Source: Marvania coccoides (taxonomy: Eukaryota; Chlorophyta; Trebouxiophyceae; Chlorellales; Chlorellaceae). Taken from it: 64,000 bases of DNA. The translations under genes were made by a program, and so were the position numbers. Within the stretch, counting starts at the first letter, position 1. Each line of letters begins with the position of its first letter. Location: positions 868,001-932,000 of the forward strand of contig OY978100.1 in the NCBI GenBank assembly GCA_963854735.1, read 5' to 3'. A model generated the notes under the pieces. That model was not told the DNA's origin, did not search any database, and was given only the letters and a program-made list of their open reading frames with translations. Positions 3,991 through 40,773 of the stretch are shown here, one piece after another.

Positions 3991-4200
3991 GGACATCTGG
4001 GTTTTGGAAAACTGCGTTCCAGCTGTTGCCAACACTGACGCTGAATACGAGCTTTTTTCGCATATGCAATCCAACACAAGTGTTATCCCCAGCGATTGCC
4101 AACGCCAGTGTTGAATGTCGTTGGAAATAATTCCAAGTGTTGGAGTGTGAAGATCAACACTTGTGTTTTTCAGCATCTCTAGTTTTCAGCGTAAATCTGC
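3991..4200. repeat. Left inverted/subterminal repeat region of the putative transposon
   Basis: This region contains the left 13-bp inverted match (3994-4006) and several related short motifs in both orientations, including CAACACTGACGCTGAAT (about 4030) and CAACGCCAGTGTTGAAT (about 4100). AACACAAGTGTT near 4075 is answered by its exact complement AACACTTGTGTT near 4156. Such subterminal motif arrays are typical of CACTA-like elements, where a second element protein binds them. Confidence 0.5.
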
Positions 4201-4444
4201 GCTTCCACGTAGCACATGTTTTTCAACGGTGCCGCATTTTGGTAGAAGTGAAGGATTCTGAACATATTTTTTGGCCACCTGCATTTGCCGCCGCTAGCTT
4301 CTTCCCCATTCGCTACGATTCTTTTATTACACATATTTCAATCGGCATATTATCAAAGACACGAGCAGGCACGCACTAGGTGTGGGCCCCCTGGACCCAC
4401 CTCATGGAGCGGCAACGTTCATAATAAAAATAAAAAAGGGCTAA

Positions 4445-4840
4445 AAGCAAGAACATCATCCAATCAAACATATTCGCATCATCAAAAGGTGCCAACAAAG
4501 GACGCAAAATATACAGATTTGGGAGAGCATGCAGAACGCTATGTTGATTGAGAATACGAAAAAAAGTAATGCTAGAAAAAAAGCTATATGAAAAATGGTG
4601 AAAAGAGGAAAAGTTAAACAGATGACAATGTTGCAAGGGATCAAGTTGAGAAGAAAAAAAAGAAAAACATTGAATCGAAGAAGGACAAGAAAGCAACGCT
4701 GAAGGTCAGAAAACAAATGTTTCACAAATTTCTTTAAAGGCTTGTGCTGAAAAGCAAGAATCATCATCCACTCAGTCAGGCTATCATCACCATAAAAACA
4801 AATATGCTATCATCAAATCATCATCAAAAGATGAACAAAG
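4445..4840. repeat. Imperfect direct duplication in AT-rich spacer
   Basis: A stretch starting AAGCAAGAACATCATCCA at about 4447 recurs as AAGCAAGAATCATCATCCA at about 4752. Each is followed by CATCATCAAAAG, then AACAAAGGAC (about 4480-4505 and 4822-4845). The copies are diverged and about 300 bp apart. No coding potential was seen here; it lies between the left transposon end and the first gene. Confidence 0.45.
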
Positions 4841-4972
4841 GACAAACGTTTTACAAATAGCTTAAAGTTCACTAAGGATAAATCCTTAGTTTGACATGCT
4901 AGTATTGAGTAATGAGTTCGATGGTAATAAGAAAATGTGTGTGTGTGTTTTTTTTCTATGCCCCAATAACCT

Positions 4973-7075
4973 TCATGCTTCCGCCTGAGCATCGAGCCCG
5001 GACACCAGTGGGAACACGTAGGCGCTGCGGCGCTGCAGCACCTCCGCCACCCGGGCATGGTAGTCCTCAGGGTGTATGTCAGACCGGATGCCGGAGGTGT
5101 CGCGCGCCTCCATCTGGCGCTCGAGCTGCACGTTGCCAATACAAAACAGTTTTTGAAAAAGATTATAGAAAGAAATCTGAAAAAGTATGGCTGCATAAGC
5201 GCCAGCAAGAAGATTTCGACATGTTTGAAAGAGCACAGCACGTTACCATACCACGAGCTCGATGTATGCGATGACGGTGGCGGGAAGGAAGTCGATCTGT
5301 GCGATCAGCGCCTGAGTGGAGGTGCCGGCGGGGCGGAAAATACCGGAGCACAGCACCAGCAGCTCCCGGTACCGCTGGTCGGCGTAGGGCTCGTTGCCCA
5401 GCGCGCTATAGGCGCGCCCCTCCAGAACCATGCGCGATACCGTGGCGTCGATGTTGCCGTTGGGGTGGATCAGCAGCCGGCCAGCAATGGCGAAGCCTGA
5501 GAACAGCCGCACCCAGTTCTGCTTCACCTCGCGGGCGACCTCACCGCGGATGTTGACGCGGAAGATCAACCCCACCTACATAATAATCAAGGGGAAAGGG
5601 CTTGGTTAATGGCGCGCTGATTTCAGATTTGATGGCAAAATGGCAAATTAATTTTTTATCACACCCGTTTAACGAGGCCACTGATCTGGTCACGCGCGTG
5701 GATGCGCGCGCTGTTGATGTCGGTATAGCCCAGGTAGAGGGCCACCACCAGCTGCACAAACGGGGCAGAGGGGAAGAAGCCCCCCAGGTTGGGGTCGGCG
5801 ATGAGCTCGAGCGCCATGATGTGCGCCTTCACCTCCTTGGTCTGCAAAATAACATTGGCATGGGGATATTAAAATTAAAACCGAGTTTAATTAAATTGTA
5901 ATAAACCGCATTAAAGGGGGAGAAAGACAATTTTAACACCGATAACCAATAAAATACTGAAGGAAAAAAGATCTACCATCTCCCTGTCGCGGCTGTTGGG
6001 GGCGCTGCCGTTCTCAGGGCTGCGCTTTTTTATCTCCTCCAACACATCGTCGAACCGGTCAAGGACCAGGCGCAGCAAGCCTGCGAGGGAAATATATATA
6101 AAAAATCGGCACCGACGGTGACATATTCTCAACAAGAGAAAGAACCATGAATTTATTCTAACAACGTCAACTTACGTGGAAGAGCCCCGACCTCGGTGCT
6201 TTGCCGCTCCAAGAGGTGAAGGACCCGCTCCATCATGGAAGAGAAAACCGCCTCGACCTCGGTGTGCTCTTGCGCAGCAGCACGAGGGCTGCGGGAGGAG
6301 GGCTGGCTGGCGCGTAGCAGCTCGGGGTGGTGGGGAGAGCCTGCCGGATCGTCGGAAAAGCGGACAAGGCGGGGTGACAAGGCAGAGAGGGGCGCCTGGG
6401 GGCCACGCCCGGCTGGGCTGCGGCGGCCCTGAGCGGCAGCGGGAGGGCTGCCCTCCGTTGCCTGGAACCTTAGGTATCTGGCAGCCATGGGGGCGTCGGG
6501 TGCCCGCTGCTCGTGCTGGGGACGAGCAAGGCGCTCGGCGTCGATGAGCTGATTCTCCTCGGGGGTGAAGTTAGCAGGGTGTAACTCGGGCACGCGGTCG
6601 TTGTCGTCCTCCTCGAACTCGTCAGACTCGTAGGGGAGGGGCACCTCCTCGCTGGAGTAGTAATCAAACTTGGGATCCTCAACAAGGGTGGGCGGACCGC
6701 CACGGCGGGGCGCCTTGAGTGTGGCAGCATCAGGCGAGTGAGGAATGACACGCTTGGTGGTAGCCTTGAGCGATCCGGGCCCGGGGGCGGAAGTAGGGAA
6801 GGAGAGGAAAGATCACCGTTTAAATTTTTGCTTAATTAAGAAAAACAGCCAGCCCGACAATATATTTGGGATTGCTGGTCCCCGGGGAGGTTGAAATTTG
6901 GATGTACAAATTTCAATCAAGCGGTGGGAGGTTCAGCAAATGCATACAAACTATAAAGCTCGCATACCTGGCCATCTCCGTTGGCAGAACGCTGGTTGGA
7001 GGGACGGGCGGACGGGGGGCTGGTGTCCATCGCATTGGCAAGAGACGGCTTGCCCCGGGGTTTCCTAGGAGGCAT
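4973..7075 (-). CDS. Unrecognised 484-aa protein, probable second gene of the transposon
   Basis: Six exons in transcript order: 7075-6968, 6764-6176, 6080-5977, 5841-5665, 5575-5252, 5125-4973, all GT-AG and in phase (1455 nt). The start ATG at 7075 opens a basic, proline-rich N-terminus. Residues 37-200 are low-complexity with an acidic block (ESDEFEEDDNDR). The C-terminal half (from about residue 230) is ordered, mixed helix/strand, with a notable segment NWVRLFSGFAIAGRLLIHPN. I do not recognise the family. It is divergent from the transposase, 342 bp apart, and both lie inside the inverted ends. By analogy with TnpA of En/Spm it could bind element ends, but no DNA-binding motif is visible. 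The alternative is an unrelated host gene next to a solo transposase. Confidence 0.6.
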
Positions 7076-7417
7076 TGTGGGCGGGGTGGCGTGTGGACGC
7101 CGACAACTACTGTTTGAAAAACAAATTATTTCTGAACAGAACGCGGCGTTGCTCGGTTGTAAACTTGCATGAATAGAAAGATTAAGTACAACGCCCAAGA
7201 GGACCATCTGCAGGACATGGTACCGGCAAGGGCAACCGTCGGACGGTTGTTAATTTTCAAAATTATTTTGGCCAACCCACGAAAAACTATTGGTTTCCTT
7301 TAAAATGCATGAAAATATATAAAATAGTCATTCTAAATTCTATTGAATACATACGGCGCCTCTCCGAAACGATACCCACAAAATCGTGTGTTCCACATCT
7401 GTGAAAATCAAATCAAA
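7076..7417. promoter_or_regulatory. Intergenic spacer between divergent transposon genes
   Basis: This 342-bp AT-rich stretch between two divergent start codons probably carries promoters for both. No clear TATA box or operator could be assigned; ATATATAAAA occurs at about 7314 on the transposase side. Confidence 0.35.
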
Positions 7418-10400
7418 ATGTTCAGGGCGCCCAAGCGGCGCAAACAGGAGTGTCCAGCATGTGGGCGTAGTTTTCAACACCTCCACGTGCATTTGGGGAT
7501 GCGAGGAGAGTGCTGGAATCGCTTGATTTCGTCGGTGGCGAGCGTCGGCGCCGGGGCTACACCTGCAGAATGGAGCAGCGACGGCGTTCCGGCGGGAGCT
7601 GCAGACGATGGAGATGGTGGATTAGAGCCTGCGGAGGTGTTCCATCTGGGCGATTGTGGTCCGCCGTCTTGCGAGGGCTTGCCGCCCCGCTCGGAGTCGG
7701 CGAGCTTTTCAAACCACGGTGGCATTGAAGCGGCCGACCTAGATCGCTGCATCAACCCGCAATGGGCTCTTGGTGGTGATGACGACGACGATGACGAGGA
7801 GGCCCATTCACATGAGCGACTCTTGGGCCGCCTCGGCCCAAACCTCACCGCCGAAGAGCGAGTGGCGCTTTCTTGCATTCCCTACCTCCCTAGGACTCAT
7901 GCGGACGACTTGCTTGATGTTTTCTTCTCGCGCAACCTAGCCCGCTGGCGAAACGTTCCCGCATTTGACGAGTGGCGTGCGAGCGTAGAAGCGGCGGTGT
8001 GGGGGCAGCCGTGGAAAGAGGTGGTCCTCATCGAGGTCAACGGGAAGGTAATCACTTGCCGCGTGGTGAAGCACATTAAAAACGTGCTGCAAGAACATGC
8101 CTTCAAGGGGGGTGTAGTTGCAGCGGCAGACCTTGGCGCAATCAACAACAAGGGAGAGGAGCTCTTTGGGCGGCCCCAGCTTGGCGAGCATTTGAGGGTC
8201 CTCATTGTAAGTTTTTCTTAACGTTGCGATGGCTACTGTTAATAATTTTCCCTGCTTTCCTAATTTTTTGAAATGCAGGCCATTCATAGCCAAAGAAACT
8301 TAGGCGAGGAAGTGCTGGTGGAGCCCTTTGGACTTTACTTCGACGAGACAAAGATGAATCATGCAGCGCTGCGGGTGAAGCCCGTGAACTTCATCGCATT
8401 GGGGCTGGACCGCTCTTCAGTTTTTAAGCGGCGAGGCACCACCAGAATTGCAGACATCCCGGTCCTCGACCACACATCTCTCGGCATTTCTGCAAGCTTT
8501 TGTGCGACCTTGCAGCATTGGGTCACCCAAAAGACGCTGGAGCTCGCCCTTGAAGAGCTGAAGTCGTACACTTTGACGTAAGCGCCATTTGTTTCCTTCT
8601 CACAGCTTGAAAAAATAGCCATTCACCTTCCACCGCCTGCTTTTCAGGGGTTTGTCGCTGAAAGACCAGTGGGAGTGTGATGCCTGGGTATACCCCGGTT
8701 GTTGCGCCATTTTGGGAGACATTCCTGCGCTTGGCGGTGGACTCCTCGTTGGCACGGGGACAAAGTGCGCCATGCCCGACGTGACATACTTGGTGCCACA
8801 ACACAGGCTGGACGACGCCTTGGGAGAGTACCCGCGCCGCACAGAGGAGGACATGCTGCGCGTTTTCGACGTGGCGGCGGCGGCTGCCGACATGCGGGCG
8901 GCGGGCACGATGGGCAGCAATGCCGCGGTGACAGCGGCAAGAAAAGAAATGAGCAAATATTCGCTGTTGCATGACGTGGTTTTTTTCGACCCAGCCCGCC
9001 GTGGTGGCGTGACGTGTTCGTTACCGGTGGAAAAGGCCCGGGTGCGGCGCCCAGCACTAGCAGGCTTTTTTGCCGCCGACTGCTATCAGCTTGCGATGGC
9101 TGATCGCCTGCACACCGTTTATAAAGGAGTGGAGCTGTACTTGGTGGCCAACGTTCCTGAGCACCAAACGAAAAAGGGCAAGACTGTGGCTGCGAGTGTT
9201 CTCAACTCGTTGGTCAGCGGAGACGAGAACATTCTGACGAGGGTAAGTAACACACTTTATATTTTGCCTTCTACAAAAATAGAAAATATTTGCAACTCAA
9301 CAAATATATATATAATTGGAAATTTACTTGTTTATTCTTCAAAGCGCAGGTCAACCAATACTTGGCCAAGTGCCCTAAGCACCCCAATCTGCCCATTCCC
9401 ACCACGGGGATGGAGCAAGCGTCCATAACCGCCGATGAGCAGCACGCCATCACGCTGATTATCGGCCCAGCGCTGCTCATGGACGAGCGCTTTGAACCGC
9501 TCATCCGCTGCCTTGCCGGTGCGTCGGTTTCTAAACTAAAACCCTGGAAATCGAACCTTTCATTATAACAAAAAAATGCGCCGTCTTTGTCCTCCACGCT
9601 GCTTGTTAACCATTGCTAAAAATCGATTCCCCTCATTTTCCCCACCGCAGCGCTGCTAAAATGGGATGCCGTCCTTGAGCGTGAGATCCACACCAAGGCC
9701 ACCATTGACCAGCTGCGCACTCTCCGCATCGACCTGCAATCCGCCGTGCTTGAGCACCTCCACCGCGGCGGGGCTGGCTGGAAGTTGCTCAAATTTTTTG
9801 CTCTGCGGAAATTTGAGGAGGTCATCGAAACGGTAGCCTCCTCCGCCTACACCGACACCGGCTTCCAGGAGCGCTCCCACAAAGACCTGAAGCGCTCGGG
9901 CAACTTCACGAATAATCGACCGGAGATGATGGCGTCGCAGGTTTCTAGCCACGCTGCGCGTTCTGCGTCCATCTACCGCCTTCTAGACGCCAGCGCGGAG
10001 GAAAAGGCTGGGAGGAGCAGCTTGCAGAAGCGCGCTCTGCAGTACCGAAGGGTGGAGTTCCCCAAGCGGTCGGTGAAGGTGTCGATGGAAGAATTGGCGC
10101 TGGGGGAGCGCACCACCAACGACACGGCGGCAACCCTCCTGAAGGCAGCTCCCGAGCTGCAGCAGCTGACATACGACGCCGCGCAACTGGCAAGAGACAA
10201 CGGGCTCGGCGCGCCCAGGCCCTCCGTCCTCGTGTACGGCACTGCAGGCTGCCCGTACTACCGCCGCATCGGCGCCCCGCCAGAGGCCGTCAAGCTCGTC
10301 AGCAAGGTCTTCGACAGCCGTATGTGCAGCTCCATTGCCGTGCGGGCGGCAGGATTTTCGCAAGAAGACCCCGTCGAATGGTACGCTGACGTGATTGCCT

Positions 10401-10666
10401 TTGTGGAGGTGCAATTCGGCCGGGCACCCAAGCGCCTCGTCTTCGTTCGGTGGTACGCCGAAGATGCCGACGCTGACTGGAGGCTGAAGCTGCTGGGGAT
10501 GCCGCAGCTGAAGGTGGAGCGGCAGAGTCGCACCGTACGCGGCGCCGGCAATCACACCGTGGATTTTACGCAGCTAGTGGACGTGGCCGAGGTTTTGCGG
10601 CCCGTGTACATCCAGCCGCATCCTTCAAAGGAGAATGTCTCCATTCTGAACCCCTACGTTGCTTAA
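7418..10666 (+). CDS. Plavaka-type DDE transposase
   Basis: Five exons (7418-8206, 8279-8577, 8648-9242, 9350-9518, 9651-10666), GT-AG and in phase, give 955 aa without any internal stop. An N-terminal zinc-finger-like motif (C12, C15, H25, C32) matches the finger found at the start of Plavaka transposases. Family-like core blocks follow in order: YFDETKMN (D285), LGDIPALGG (D387), ADRLHTVYKGVELYL (about residue 515), then FQERSHKDLKRSGNFTNN (E691). A C-terminal region ends ILNPYVA, similar to the usual family tail. D285, D387 and E691 are my candidates for the catalytic triad, by comparison with remembered family blocks. The gene lies inside a segment with inverted ends. The uninterrupted frame suggests recent activity or domestication. 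TTG at 7343 is in frame upstream, but the first ATG is at 7418. Confidence 0.75.
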
Positions 10667-11079
10667 AGAGGGGGGTTCAGCATTGGGATAGATGTAATGT
10701 AGTCAATGTGCACCTCAAGGGAGCCAGTCAGAACACATATTGATGAAATACAGGAAATATGAATTTTTTATACTTAAATGACTGGAGGGAGAAGTGAAGC
10801 AGTCGAAACAACCCCATTTTTATTTAATTGAAAATCGCGGAGGCCGCTCCCTGAGTAGTCCGCTGCCACTTCGACGTGCTAATTCAATGCTAATTATGAT
10901 ATATTTGAATTTGAAAGCTGGTTCAATGCGCAAGCATTCTGGTTTAAGAGATTAGGTAGGTTTTCGTGCAAATTGTCATCTTGCAAATAATTTCTGAAGA
11001 TGAGGGCCCGTAGAGATTAGCACAGCGTGTGCCTTCCATTTTAAAGTCATTGACATCGCTTGGAGTGGCTGTGGTGCAC

Positions 11080-11420
11080 AGAGAGGAAGCGGGAAATGTG
11101 ATGAGCGGTCTTGGCGTTGAAAACTGTAGAAACACAGGCTGAAATTGAGTGAAATGCAACGCCACTGTGTAATCATAGCCATTGACGCTGTGCTGGCCAG
11201 CATCATTCAACGCCACTGTTGGGAGACGTCGGGAAAATATTTGACATGTTGGGTTGCGTTGTCCAACGCGACTCAGCCCAACGTCGGGCAACACCCACAC
11301 GAAAAAACGTTGAATACACACATGCTTTCCGACTGTTGCCAGCTTTTACGCTGGAGTGTACCCCGCGCAAAACCCAGATGGGACAGAGAAGGTACTTTCG
11401 TCAAATTTCGAGGGGCCGCG
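11080..11420. repeat. Right inverted/subterminal repeat region of the putative transposon
   Basis: This region carries CAACGCCACTGT twice (about 11158 and 11208), CCATTGACGCTG, CAACGCGACTCAG and GTTGGGCTGAG-like complements, then the right 13-bp inverted match at 11368-11380. Motif type and order mirror the left end. The remainder of the 10667-11555 gap shows no gene. Confidence 0.5.
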
Positions 11421-35398: not shown

Positions 35399-38300
35399 TT
35401 ATGGCGTTGCAGCTTCCACTGGCATCTCGCCGTGCTGCACAGATGCGCCTTGCTGCAGCGCCAGTCTCTGCAACTCGGCCCGCCGCAGCTCACATGCCTT
35501 CTTCCATTGCGGGTTTAAGCACGCCTTGCATGCCCCGCACCGTTGGTCGGCTGTGATCCTGGGGCCTAAGAACCTACGGCGCTGCTGCCCCCGTCCACTC
35601 TTCGCATCAGCAGCTTCCTGCGATTTGGGCTTCCCGTACCCCCCCAAAGGTACCAGTCCCTCAGCCACAACTCCCGCTCTTGCTTTCTTAATATTCTTCT
35701 TAGCAGGGCCTCGTTGTGGGGTCATCGGCTGCGCTGCTAAGAGCTGCGCTCGCTGGCCTATGAACTGAGGCAACTGTGACAGATGTGGCCAGGCGGCAAT
35801 GCTGTTGGGCACCTGCGGGGTCGTCTGCTGAGTCCAGGGAGCAGCAGCTGCAATGCCACCAGGCCCTTGCGGCATTTGAGGCCAAGAAAGGGGTGCAGCA
35901 ATGCCACCAGGCCCGATCATGGACATTCCTTGCAGAGCAGCAACCCCAGGCCAAGCTGCAGCCAGTGATAGCCCAAACACGCTTTGAATGCTGCTGCTGG
36001 TCTCCAGCGACAGTCCTCCTATCGGGAACCCCTCAACACAGACAGTGGGAGGGGTAAAAATCCGCTCTGAAGCCAGAGGAACCCGCACCATGCGCAGCCT
36101 TGCGGCAGAAGGCAGGGCGGCGGTGGCAGCAGCGGGAGTGTTGTTGGCCAAAACCGGAGCCGCCAAAGAAGCGCCTGCCCATTCAAACATCTGCGTCCCG
36201 AATTTCAACGCCTGTGTCGCTGCTTTGGCCACCTTTTTGGCCTTCCGCTCTGCTGCATTTTTCCATGTGGATTTGGTGGCGGTGGGAATCGAAGGCATAA
36301 GGAAGTGAGGGAGCATCACCGGGGCGCGAGAGACGGGGTCAAAGGCGCGGAAGCACACTCGGCCATCGGTGAACATTAAGGCTACGTCCTCCTGGTTCAT
36401 GCCCTTGGAGCTGCATCCGGGAATCAAAAAAATATATAGTTATATTACAGAACTCAAGAAAACAAAGGAATTTTTGACAGAAAGCGAAGAACATCCTGAT
36501 TTTTTTGTATGTTCATTAAACTCACAGATAATGGATTGCGAGGCCAAAGTAGATCGCGCAGGTCTTGCAGCCATCGACCGCCACGCGTGACAGCTGCAAG
36601 GACAAAATTTAGCACATTCAGCTGAGATAAAAGAGTGAAAAAACTAAAAATATATTAATCTAATAAATAACTCGCCTTAACAGGGCAGGTGATGCTGGCC
36701 TGGTCCGCAAACACCTCGTTGATTTGAAAGTAGGTGCCGTTGAGAGGGAAACGGCCGCGCAGTGCAGCGCGAGTGCTAACCAGCAGAATTCCCTCCAATC
36801 TATCGTCAGCTAGACTAATACCTGCTGAAATGGCAGTTTCACCATCAGAGGCGCTGCCGCCAACTCCCGTGGCGACTCCAAAATCAATTACAGCACTGCC
36901 ACCGCCGACGGCAGCTGGAGCCTGACCCAAAGCCGCTGCCTTAACGGTTTCAACCGTGGCCCCCGGCATGTCCCTGCCCGCAACGTACTCCCGTTGGAAA
37001 GTCGGAATGTTGGCCAGCGGGAGGAACATCAGGTGGTCTTCCTCTTCAGGGCCCTCTCCAGAGACAGCAGGCGGGCACAAGTAAGGATACTTGCGGCGCA
37101 AGTGGGCTGGCAGGATGTGGGCAGCTACCACCAGGCGATTGGGATTCCACCCCACACGCTCCTCGGCAGGCTTCACATTTTCCGGAGCAATAAAATTCGC
37201 AGCGAAACCGGCAGCGCCGCCTTCCGCGTCATTTCCTCCTCCTGCAGGCCCTCCTCCATACTCAACCAGCGTTGCCATCGCCAGGCTCAGCGCGGCAAAT
37301 GCATCTGCGGCGCCATCATGCTTGCACTTATCGGGGTGCAGCATGCGAGCCATAAGGCGGTAGTTGCTGCGCGCGGTGGCCATGACACTGGCTGTGGACT
37401 GCACCTCGAGGGTGGTATCGACGTGGAGGGCCTGCAGGCTGAGCTCCAGCAACCTGAATCGCGGAGAAGAAAACATTAAATTAAATAATCCGATATTTTA
37501 TTTTGAATAGTTTAATAAAAAGCCAGAATGAATTGTTATATCTATTATATTGATGGGATGTTCTTATCTTACCTGGTCTGCAACGACACATCCTCGCTAT
37601 CGGCAGGGAGCTTGGCCATCGCTTCGCTCACCCCCGCCATCTCAACTCCCAAAGCGTGGAGAAGGACACATTCTTTCAGACTGTCACCGATGGAAATTAC
37701 GGTGGTCAACGCGTCCTTGGAAGGCGCCAAGCTCCCCAGCAGCGGCAGCTCTAGAGACTTGGCTAAGAACGCTGCTGCAATGCTGGGGTCGACAGCAAGC
37801 GCAGGGACGAAGGCTTCCGGCGCAAAACATATTGAAGCGGCGAGAGGAGTCTCTTCCTGCGCGGGTGAAGCCGTCTCAGGGCTGCTGAGGGTGAGAGTGG
37901 CAGCAGCGGTGGGAGGGGTGAAAACTTCTTTAGGGCTGCTAGGGGCAGCAGCCGACAGGAAAGAAGTCGGGCCAGGGGTCATAGGGTATCCAGAAGCAGC
38001 AGTTACGGCAGGGGAAATAGGGACCTCGAAGGGCGAAACAGCCAACGGTGGCGCAGCGGTGGGCTCTGCTGCTGGTTTGGAGACCAAAACCACCGGGACA
38101 ACATAAGGGGGCGCGGGGTAAAACCCAGCAAATGCAGACTGCTGCGACGCCCAGTCTTCGATGTCCCAAACCGACTCGGAAGCTGCGGGGCCAAGGTCGG
38201 CAGCCTGCATCAATGGCTGTGAAATAGAAGGTGGGGGCACCTCCGAGCCTGCATCTGCTCTGCTTGTTGCATCTGTCCTGCTGGCCAGCTGCCCAAGAAC

Positions 38301-40773
38301 TCCTGCCGCCTCCTCTGCCAGCGAGCTCATCCACGCTGCTCCTGTTTCCTCTACCACGGGAGGGCTGGCCTCCATAGGCACCGAATGCTCGCTAGTAGGG
38401 TCCCACACAGAAGAAGGCGGGTTCAGCTCCAAATGCAGGCGGTCAATCGGCAGCCATCTGACCTGGGGCGCAGGCCGCAATTGAGCAGCCGCCGCCTGGG
38501 CTCGCAGCTCTGCATGCACGCGCTGCAGGGGGGTGGCAGCGGCAATGGGAGATTCAGCGGGCGGATGACGAAGGCCCTTGGTCCTGGGGCGCGTGGAACG
38601 TGCCGCTATGAGCTCGTCGAGCGTCAGCGATGAAAACCGCCGCTCCCGCTCCTCCTGCTCTCTTGCCATCTTTTCTATCTTCGCTTGGGTCTTCCAGTGA
38701 ACGCGCTTGTCTCTGGGGACATCGCCAGGATTGCCTTGGTAGGCTGGCGGCGCTGTCCACATCTCCTCAGGGGCGATGGTCTCCTTGTGCGCGACCTTGA
38801 CGCGCTTGCGTCCATGTAGAGAGGGGCCATCATGCAGAGCGTACTCGCAGGTGGATCTCATAGGGCAGGCTGTGCAGTTGGGGTTGGCTTTGGAGCAAAA
38901 GATCTTGCCCAGTGTGATCATCTGTAAAAAAAGAGGTATGCTAACGGCTAACGTAAACAATTGTTCTATAATAAATTAATAGGCTACTAAATAAAAGAGA
39001 GTGAAAGTGCACAAAAGGCTCTCTTGAATGGAATTTATTATACAAATTAGAAAGAATAAAGCAAAATTAGAGCATTACAAAAGAAAAAAATCATTTCGAC
39101 TTGCCTGGTAGTGCAGCTCGTAAAGCGTCTCGATGTCAAAGCCCAGCAGCCGGGAGCGCAGGTACGCGTGCACCTCTGGCTCAGGGGCGTAGCCGTCTAG
39201 GTCCTCAATGGCCTCGGCGGCGTCCAGCGGGATCCACCCCAGCCTGGAGCAGATGCGCCCCACGTTTGTATCCACCGGAAATTCTTTCTTTGCCAGGGTC
39301 AACAGCATAATGCAAGCACTACTCTTCCTTCCCAGCCCATTGATTCCCATCAGAAAGTCCCTGGCCTCCTCATCCGGCACCCTCCGCAGCCACTCCAAAG
39401 AAAGAAGCTCCGACGCGGCAGAGGCGGCCAGCTGCGATCGCAAACTCTCCAAATCTTTAGCTGCGGCAGCGCTGACAGCCTCTCTGCTGGTGTTTTCGCC
39501 TTCGTACTCCAGTTCTATGGGCCGGCGGGGCTGCGGGAGGGCAGCAGCTGCTGCAGAGACCCTCGGCACCGGCTCACAAATCTCCACAATTTCCATCTCA
39601 TCGTCCACCAAAGATTCTCTAATGGGCGTCAGACTAGATGGAAGAGGTAGGCAAACTTCTGCCTGCTCCACAGTGGTCAGCATGCAGTCCATCAGGGCCA
39701 TGACGTCATCGGTGACTCCGCCCCCCAGGTGAGCCCAGCTCGGCGAAGCACGCTGCATGTTCACCTGCCTCACCCTGTTCAAACAAGCCTGAATGTTGGA
39801 CGCTAGAACAGTCTGCATGCCTCGGCATTTGATGGTGTCTGACAGCTGCAATAATTTATATAAAGGGAGGGGGTGGGGATGGAGAAATAAAAACATTCCA
39901 ATTTTATGTCATTCGGGATGGGTGTCTTTGATTTTTTATAAAAAAACAAGTCAAAGAAAAGTATGCCGTTCGCTTGCCTCCTCTTGGGGTGCAGTGCGTA
40001 CTGCTTCCCAGTCCACAGTGTCCGTAGATTGGTGCTGCTGTGTGCCACAAGTGCTGCCGTGCGCTGGCCAGCGGCTGGCCACCTCCATGTAGGCCCTGCT
40101 GGACAGCATGTCCGACACGTTTTGCGTGAGAAAAGCGCCCACCACGCTGTCCACGACGCTGCCCGACCACATGAACTTCCGCCTGCGATCGCCCAGCACG
40201 TTTCTGCATGCAAACAGGCAGAGATTGATCAATAAAAAAACTATCAATGATTATAAACTTTCAAAAAATTAACAGAAAGAAATCTACAGTATTAACTTGC
40301 CTCATCGCGTGCTGAAACTGGGCGATGCGACGGGCCCAGGTGAGCGCCTCGTTGGCGCCATAAATGATCATCGTCAGCTGTCCTTCGCGCAGAATACGAG
40401 CGCGCTTTTCTGCGAAACAGGAATAATTGAGTTCTTATTGTGAGCTGAACATAAGATGGGGAAAAACTTCCAACTCACTGCGGGGGGTGCGCTTGGGCGT
40501 TTCAGAGAAGGGAAGATTGCCTCCCACAGGAAATGGAAATGCGTTAGATTGAGTGAGGAAGGGAGTCGGCTGCTCGAGAGGCACCGCAGGCGCATCCAGA
40601 GCGGGCAGCGGTAGCAGCGGCCGCCCTACTGAATCGAAGAGAGCCGCTGCAAGGGCTATCTGGGGTGGTGGCTGGTAAGGGTTCGTCTCTGTGGGGATGA
40701 CAGGGGTGTCAAACAGCACCGTTTGCCCCCGCAAAGGGACTGCCATCGACCCAATACCTGAGTTCTCGCCCAT
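35399..40773 (-). CDS. DEMETER/ROS1-type 5-methylcytosine DNA glycosylase
   Basis: Eight exons: 40773-40479, 40409-40301, 40203-39978, 39845-39105, 38921-37573, 37453-36676, 36593-36526, 36410-35399 (1525 aa). Introns 2, 3, 4 and 6 have GC donors (GCAAGT, GCAAGC, GCAAGT, GCGAGT). The HhH-GPD domain has the catalytic Lys in GINGLGRKSS (about K384) and Asp in FPVDTNVGRI (about D402). It is followed by YELHYQ|MITLGKIFC and a 4Fe-4S ligand set C466-x6-C-x2-C-x5-C. A J-domain-like segment with HPD (946-948) lies next. Then come the family's RRM-like region (NGTYFQINEVFADQAS ... VCFRAFDP) and a permuted CXXC unit (CGACKACLNPQWKKAC) near the C-terminus. The enzyme excises 5mC to start base-excision demethylation. 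Long Pro/Ala/Ser-rich linkers separate the domains. Confidence 0.9.

Follow-up and report, generated by a model that had tools for sequence, protein, structure and literature searches.

The window analyzed here, a 64,000-nucleotide stretch of Marvania coccoides contig OY978100.1 (forward-strand positions 868,001 to 932,000), contains a complete DNA transposon of 7387 base pairs (bp) at positions 3994-11380, designated family A. Its left tip, CATCTGGGTTTTG, lies at 3994-4006 and is matched perfectly over 13 bp by its inverse at 11368-11380, and the trinucleotide GGA flanks the element on both sides (3991-3993 and 11381-11383). Two divergent genes are predicted between the ends, one encoding a transposase of 955 amino acids (aa) and the other, hereafter gene 2, a companion protein. 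The features of the element, in window positions, are as follows.

3991-3993, no strand: target site duplication, left, GGA, read from the flanks of the copy
3994-4006, plus strand: terminal inverted repeat, left, CATCTGGGTTTTG; all 11 exact genome-wide occurrences are at copy ends
3994-4193, no strand: left subterminal region; repeats of CAACAC/CAACGC run in both directions; suggestive only in a shuffle test
4973-7075, minus strand: gene 2, predicted model, 484 aa, six exons; no Pfam match; homologue with equal intron phases in a second family (family B)
7076-7417, no strand: 342 bp separating the two divergent start codons; presumably a shared promoter region
7418-10666, plus strand: transposase gene, 955 aa, five exons; predicted splicing, putative catalytic residues
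11181-11380, no strand: right subterminal region with CAACGC/CAACAC repeats on either strand; suggestive in a shuffle test
11368-11380, minus strand: terminal inverted repeat, right, CAAAACCCAGATG on the plus strand, located by tip search
11381-11383, no strand: target site duplication, right, GGA, read from the flanks of the copy

The transposase is predicted to be encoded by five exons (7418-8206, 8279-8577, 8648-9242, 9350-9518 and 9651-10666) separated by GT..AG introns, and gene 2 by six exons (7075-6968, 6764-6176, 6080-5977, 5841-5665, 5575-5252 and 5125-4973, the end coordinate following arithmetically from the exon model). An earlier sequence-only reading of the window had described an intact 955-aa transposase and two divergent genes between inverted ends; both descriptions were borne out, with exact coordinates and both genes splicing to open products. 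The transposase carries a conserved N-terminal CxxC-H-C cluster (C12, C15, H25 and C32), perhaps a zinc finger, and D285, D387 and E691 are its putative catalytic residues. Single-sequence AlphaFold2 predictions for exon 5 of the transposase alone and exon 5 of gene 2 alone were poor models (mean predicted local distance difference test scores of 38.1 and 41.6, respectively). Rfam and transfer RNA scans of the window returned no matches, and the five tandem repeats listed for the window all lie outside the element.

A search with the whole element across the genome (22.46 Mb in 15 contigs, denoted C1, C2 and so on) yielded 27 matches, consisting of four full-length copies together with shorter or diverged pieces. 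The full-length copies (the window copy, C13:48276-55665, C4:1068853-1076242 and C2:791603-798971) differ pairwise by 1-7 substitutions plus a few short indels; in copy L008 three substitutions adjoin an indel and may be an effect of the alignment. Both genes are open to the final stop in all four, with transposases of 955, 955, 955 and 954 aa and gene 2 products of 484, 484, 484 and 479 aa. The three further copies end at the same bases as the window copy, apart from L007, which is missing its initial C, and these borders coincide with the 3.99 and 11.38 kb ends put forward in the sequence-only reading. Alignment of the copies revealed fixed ends and 3-bp target duplications in four of the five family A copies whose two ends were read. 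Three of these (GGA, AAC and TTT) belong to full-length copies, and the fourth (GTC) flanks a 416-bp internal-deletion copy (L014) that keeps 187 bp of the left end and 86 bp of the right end.

The exact 13-mer was found 11 times genome-wide, compared with approximately 0.7 expected from length alone, and every occurrence is an end of a family A copy (nine at the five two-ended copies and one each at the one-ended fragments C3:928568 and C13:830341). This confirms the earlier judgment that the inverted match was unlikely to be due to chance. With one mismatch allowed, 45 matches were obtained against 11 for a reversed control pattern. Ten of the 45 places carry CATCTGGGTCTTG, which is one base off the family A tip and possibly a coding motif; eight are not near a family A match, and two (C1:3132132 and C13:832595) lie within approximately 3 kb of one.

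A protein search of the genome identified a related transposase at C2:1272077-1275017 and C4:1620581-1623521, representing a second family, family B. Its two full-length copies are 6249 bp long and 99.98% identical, with abrupt divergence beyond, and both ends carry the 15-bp tip CATCTCAGTTTTGTG. Target duplications flank two of three copies, namely the C4 copy (ATT/ATT) and C11:47932-49630 (GTA/GTA), with none at the C2 copy; the C11 copy (L062) is a 1699-bp internally deleted relative with mutated tips. The exact family B tip occurred eight times (four ends of the two full-length copies, two at remnants and two unassigned), or 53 times with one mismatch allowed against 11 for the control, and is less clean than the family A tip. 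The predicted family B transposase, whose model was picked by testing junction offsets for an open frame, has 982 aa and is 41% identical to that of family A; its putative second D and last E are D400 and E709. A remnant at C1:1870373-1870938 (L061) retains a 3' transposase piece and the right tip, and further left-end pieces were observed at C11:309466, C11:779946 and C1:263334. The stretch adjoining the C2 copy (L045, approximately C2:1275880-1276080) resembles, by eye, a U2 spliceosomal RNA gene.

Across both families, 3-bp target duplications are present in six of the eight two-ended copies. Matching triplets were observed in five of seven copies (the two-ended family A copies and the two full-length family B copies), and random re-pairing of left with right triplets gave five matches in 27 of 100,000 trials; the C11 copy was left out of this test and added afterwards to give six of eight.

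Family B carries a homologous gene 2 in the same place and in the same divergent orientation, with a gap of 353 bp between the start codons as opposed to 342 bp in family A. The two products align by blastp with an E-value of 7e-19 (75.1 bits, 24% identity over family A residues 178-466), whereas the highest-scoring of 200 shuffled versions reached 23.1 bits, and the N-terminal half is poorly conserved. Intron phases are equal in the two families (0,1,0,0,0 for gene 2 and 0,2,0,1 for the transposase), an agreement that was partly guided since the family B models were drawn with the family A models in view. No Pfam match was obtained for gene 2 of family A up to an E-value of 10 or for gene 2 of family B below 0.11, and none was credible in either family. 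All 28 gene 2 matches listed in the genome lie at family A or B copies or remnants, in a list that is incomplete and missed gene 2 of the two full-length family B copies (local tblastn, 1.6e-11). The presence of homologous divergent genes with equal intron phases beside transposases of 41% identity suggests that the pair was most likely inherited together from a common ancestor, and that a passenger role for gene 2 is unlikely.

Short repeats recur within 200-300 bp of the ends, CAACAC/CAACGC in family A and CAGCGC in family B. The family A count of the commonest 6-mer was matched by 0.3% of 300 shuffles for 200-bp ends and by 5% for 300-bp ends; over both families, between 0 and 5% of the 300 dinucleotide shuffles attained the count of the commonest 6-mer, and longer words were weaker. 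When element, end length and word length were varied in 12 combinations, the shuffle share ranged from 0 to 0.36, and the enrichment is therefore only suggestive. Repeats that differ between the families would be consistent with a companion protein specific to each, which is likewise suggestive only.

Terminal inverted repeats, coinciding borders in independent copies and target duplications of fixed length, the hallmarks of cut-and-paste transposition, are all present. Internally deleted copies that retain target duplications (L014 and the C11 copy) fit a system acting on its ends. From the fixed borders, inverted tips, 3-bp duplications, four near-identical open copies, deleted end-keeping copies and a second family with the same two-gene plan, we consider it likely that family A is an autonomous cut-and-paste transposon, young and probably still mobile, with a D-D-E transposase and an obligatory end-binding companion. 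In this reading the 955-aa protein would belong with the RNase-H-fold D-D-E transposases on the Plavaka/CACTA side; it would cleave at CATCT..AGATG and integrate the element with a stagger of 3 bp. The gene 2 product may be an accessory protein that binds the element ends; as an obligatory companion it would recognize the family-specific repeats inside the tips and help in end pairing. In maize En/Spm, TnpA binds subterminal repeats and helps pair the ends, and the gene 2 product would act by analogy.

Several observations weigh against this reading or its details. Two of the eight two-ended copies have no target duplication, namely the C2 copy of family B and the full-length family A copy without the first C (L007, tip at C4:1076231-1076243); imprecise insertion or later loss could account for the latter. 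The gene models are based on splice signals and on comparison of the two families, and two introns of the family B transposase start with GC (in a GCAAGT context) and not GT, all other junctions used in both families and genes being GT..AG. The subterminal repeats exceed the shuffled sequences only modestly. Among Pfam families Plavaka (PF18759) is the best for both transposases, but the whole-protein scores were 17.2 (A) and 18.2 (B) bits compared with a curated cut-off of 26.3; cut-out cores, an excision chosen after the whole-protein result, scored 21.6 and 23.2 bits (E-values of 1.5e-4 and 4.8e-5), still below the cut-off, and neither family was listed when the genome was searched in six frames with PF18759. 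The motifs C(2)C and H(3-4)H were absent between D387 and E691 in family A and between D400 and E709 in family B. In both transposases CxxC occurred only at the N-terminus and Hx3-4H nowhere after the second D, so the missing-motif result is independent of the choice of E. Three protein searches of a 5.8-billion set (two with single sequences at thresholds of 0.001 and 1, and one with the A/B alignment at 0.01) scored 7987, 7992 and 7987 candidates and found no relative, as did a PDB profile search up to an E-value of 10; none of the 100 pattern matches in genome_contigs and none of the 26 in viral_contigs was confirmed. The six-frame search also gave a below-cut-off signal in a Thermotoga control and one other sub-threshold place (C1:2574632, 15.8 bits, E-value of 0.06), a 71-codon frame that adjoins a frame reading like ribosomal protein S4 and was taken as chance.

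Based on the scores below the cut-off and the absent motifs, the transposase is called Plavaka-like and was not filed as Plavaka. The sequence-only reading had termed the element Plavaka-type, and in the profile comparison of the translated exons that it proposed, Plavaka was indeed the best family. Its assignment is supported as a distant relationship to fungal Plavaka, given also the PlavakaB-like tips and duplications, but membership is not proven, with the family A scores below 26.3 bits both whole and as a core, the motifs absent and both families missed in the genome search.

Fungal PlavakaB elements have CATCA..TGATG termini and 2 or 3 bp duplications, and all related lineages are reported to share two motifs, C(2)C and H(3-4)H, that lie between the second D and last E (PMC12730594). 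Families A and B resemble PlavakaB in their CATC..GATG ends, 3-bp duplications and detectable PF18759 similarity, but differ in tips that read CATCT..AGATG (four of five tip bases agree), in a sub-threshold profile score and in lacking both motifs. They further carry the conserved divergent gene 2 without a family match, whereas TET-bearing PlavakaB carry a TET/JBP dioxygenase (PMC12730594). Members of the CACTA-Mirage-Chapaev-Transib-Plavaka group mostly have 5'-CA..TG-3' termini and 2 to 5 bp duplications (PMC12730594); both families agree with these termini and this range but lack C(2)C and H(3-4)H. With respect to Kyakuja, Dileera and Zisupton, duplications in families A and B are 3 bp and not the 8 bp described for Zisupton (PMC12730594). 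Neither family A nor family B gave a Pfam match to any CACTA family. The CACTA / En-Spm elements (TnpA, TnpD) have a two-protein plan, 3-bp duplications and subterminal repeats, with one transcript for both products. Families A and B have the two-protein plan and 3-bp duplications in common with them, together with modestly enriched subterminal repeats, but their tips differ and their genes are divergent.

Plavaka transposases have been reported outside fungi, including 'potentially active' EnSpm-Plavaka families in the green alga Auxenochlorella (PMC12633428) and a Plavaka transposase in the animal relative Amoebidium (PMC11244446). The Auxenochlorella families, compared by description only, have a green algal host and potentially active cut-and-paste transposition in common with the present elements. 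A full-length Plavaka-type element in an alga, which the sequence-only reading had singled out, is thus less surprising than stated; the new part is the conserved gene pair and the missing motifs. The excerpts of PMC12730594, PMC12633428 and PMC11244446 contained no mention of a second gene that is both conserved and divergent.

That the two families form a distinct sister lineage of the CACTA/Plavaka/Transib assemblage that has a companion gene of its own falls just short of an even prospect. Motifs missing from two families only 41% identical, a conserved gene 2 without a credible Pfam match and the lack of relatives in the protein set, PDB, genome_contigs and viral_contigs point in this direction, but the tips and duplication length are still PlavakaB-like and the lineage is set apart from others by descriptions only. 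Alternatively, and tentatively, the elements could be canonical Plavaka (PlavakaB) whose low Pfam score results only from green-algal members missing in the profile. PF18759 is the best family for both, with the core E-values given above, and the CATC..GATG tips and 3-bp duplications resemble those of PlavakaB (PMC12730594); set against this, every score is below the cut-off and both transposases lack C(2)C and H(3-4)H throughout the part that follows the proposed second D. It is improbable that gene 2 was captured from the host and plays no part in transposition, as its lack of a known domain, divergent orientation and poorly conserved N-terminal half might suggest, since a homologue with the same place, orientation and intron phases stands beside a transposase of 41% identity and all 28 listed matches, in the incomplete list, are at family A or B copies or remnants. 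A duplicated host segment or chance repeat pairing in place of a transposon is highly improbable, for although full-length copies number only four, they have four different flanks and abrupt identical borders, three with 3-bp duplications.

The description of the genome as alga-like in the sequence-only reading is in agreement with the chlorophyll a/b-binding family, for which 21 matches were obtained. One frame, which in PDB matches chains bearing the names of chlorophyll a-b binding and LHCII proteins, is taken as a green-type antenna, a type that algae with secondary green plastids could also carry; the top PDB rows for the same frame are long chains named LHCI (entry 9vfj). Elsewhere in the window, minus-strand frames at 35399-40250 resemble a DEMETER/ROS1-type 5-methylcytosine DNA glycosylase. 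An iron-sulphur-like segment (37569-38975) matches ROS1 in PDB with an E-value of 1.4e-6, with MutY weaker at 0.006, and is accompanied by what are presumably a helix-hairpin-helix-like stretch (39075-39908) and a CXXC-like stretch (35399-36439); the two of these frames tested gave no Pfam match.

A bolder proposal, which we regard as unlikely, is that the two families belong to a lineage not yet described, branching at the base of Plavaka or next to it, whose transposase has lost the C(2)C/H(3-4)H module of CACTA, Transib and RAG1, and in which synapsis of the ends would depend on the co-evolved divergent companion. In a compact algal genome, an intact two-gene element whose copies are near-identical and occur alongside internally deleted derivatives is a candidate both for an active two-component system and for a gene-tagging tool. 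Should the absence of the motifs hold up, the elements would raise the questions of how a transposase of the RAG1/CACTA type functions in the absence of this module and what job the companion performs.

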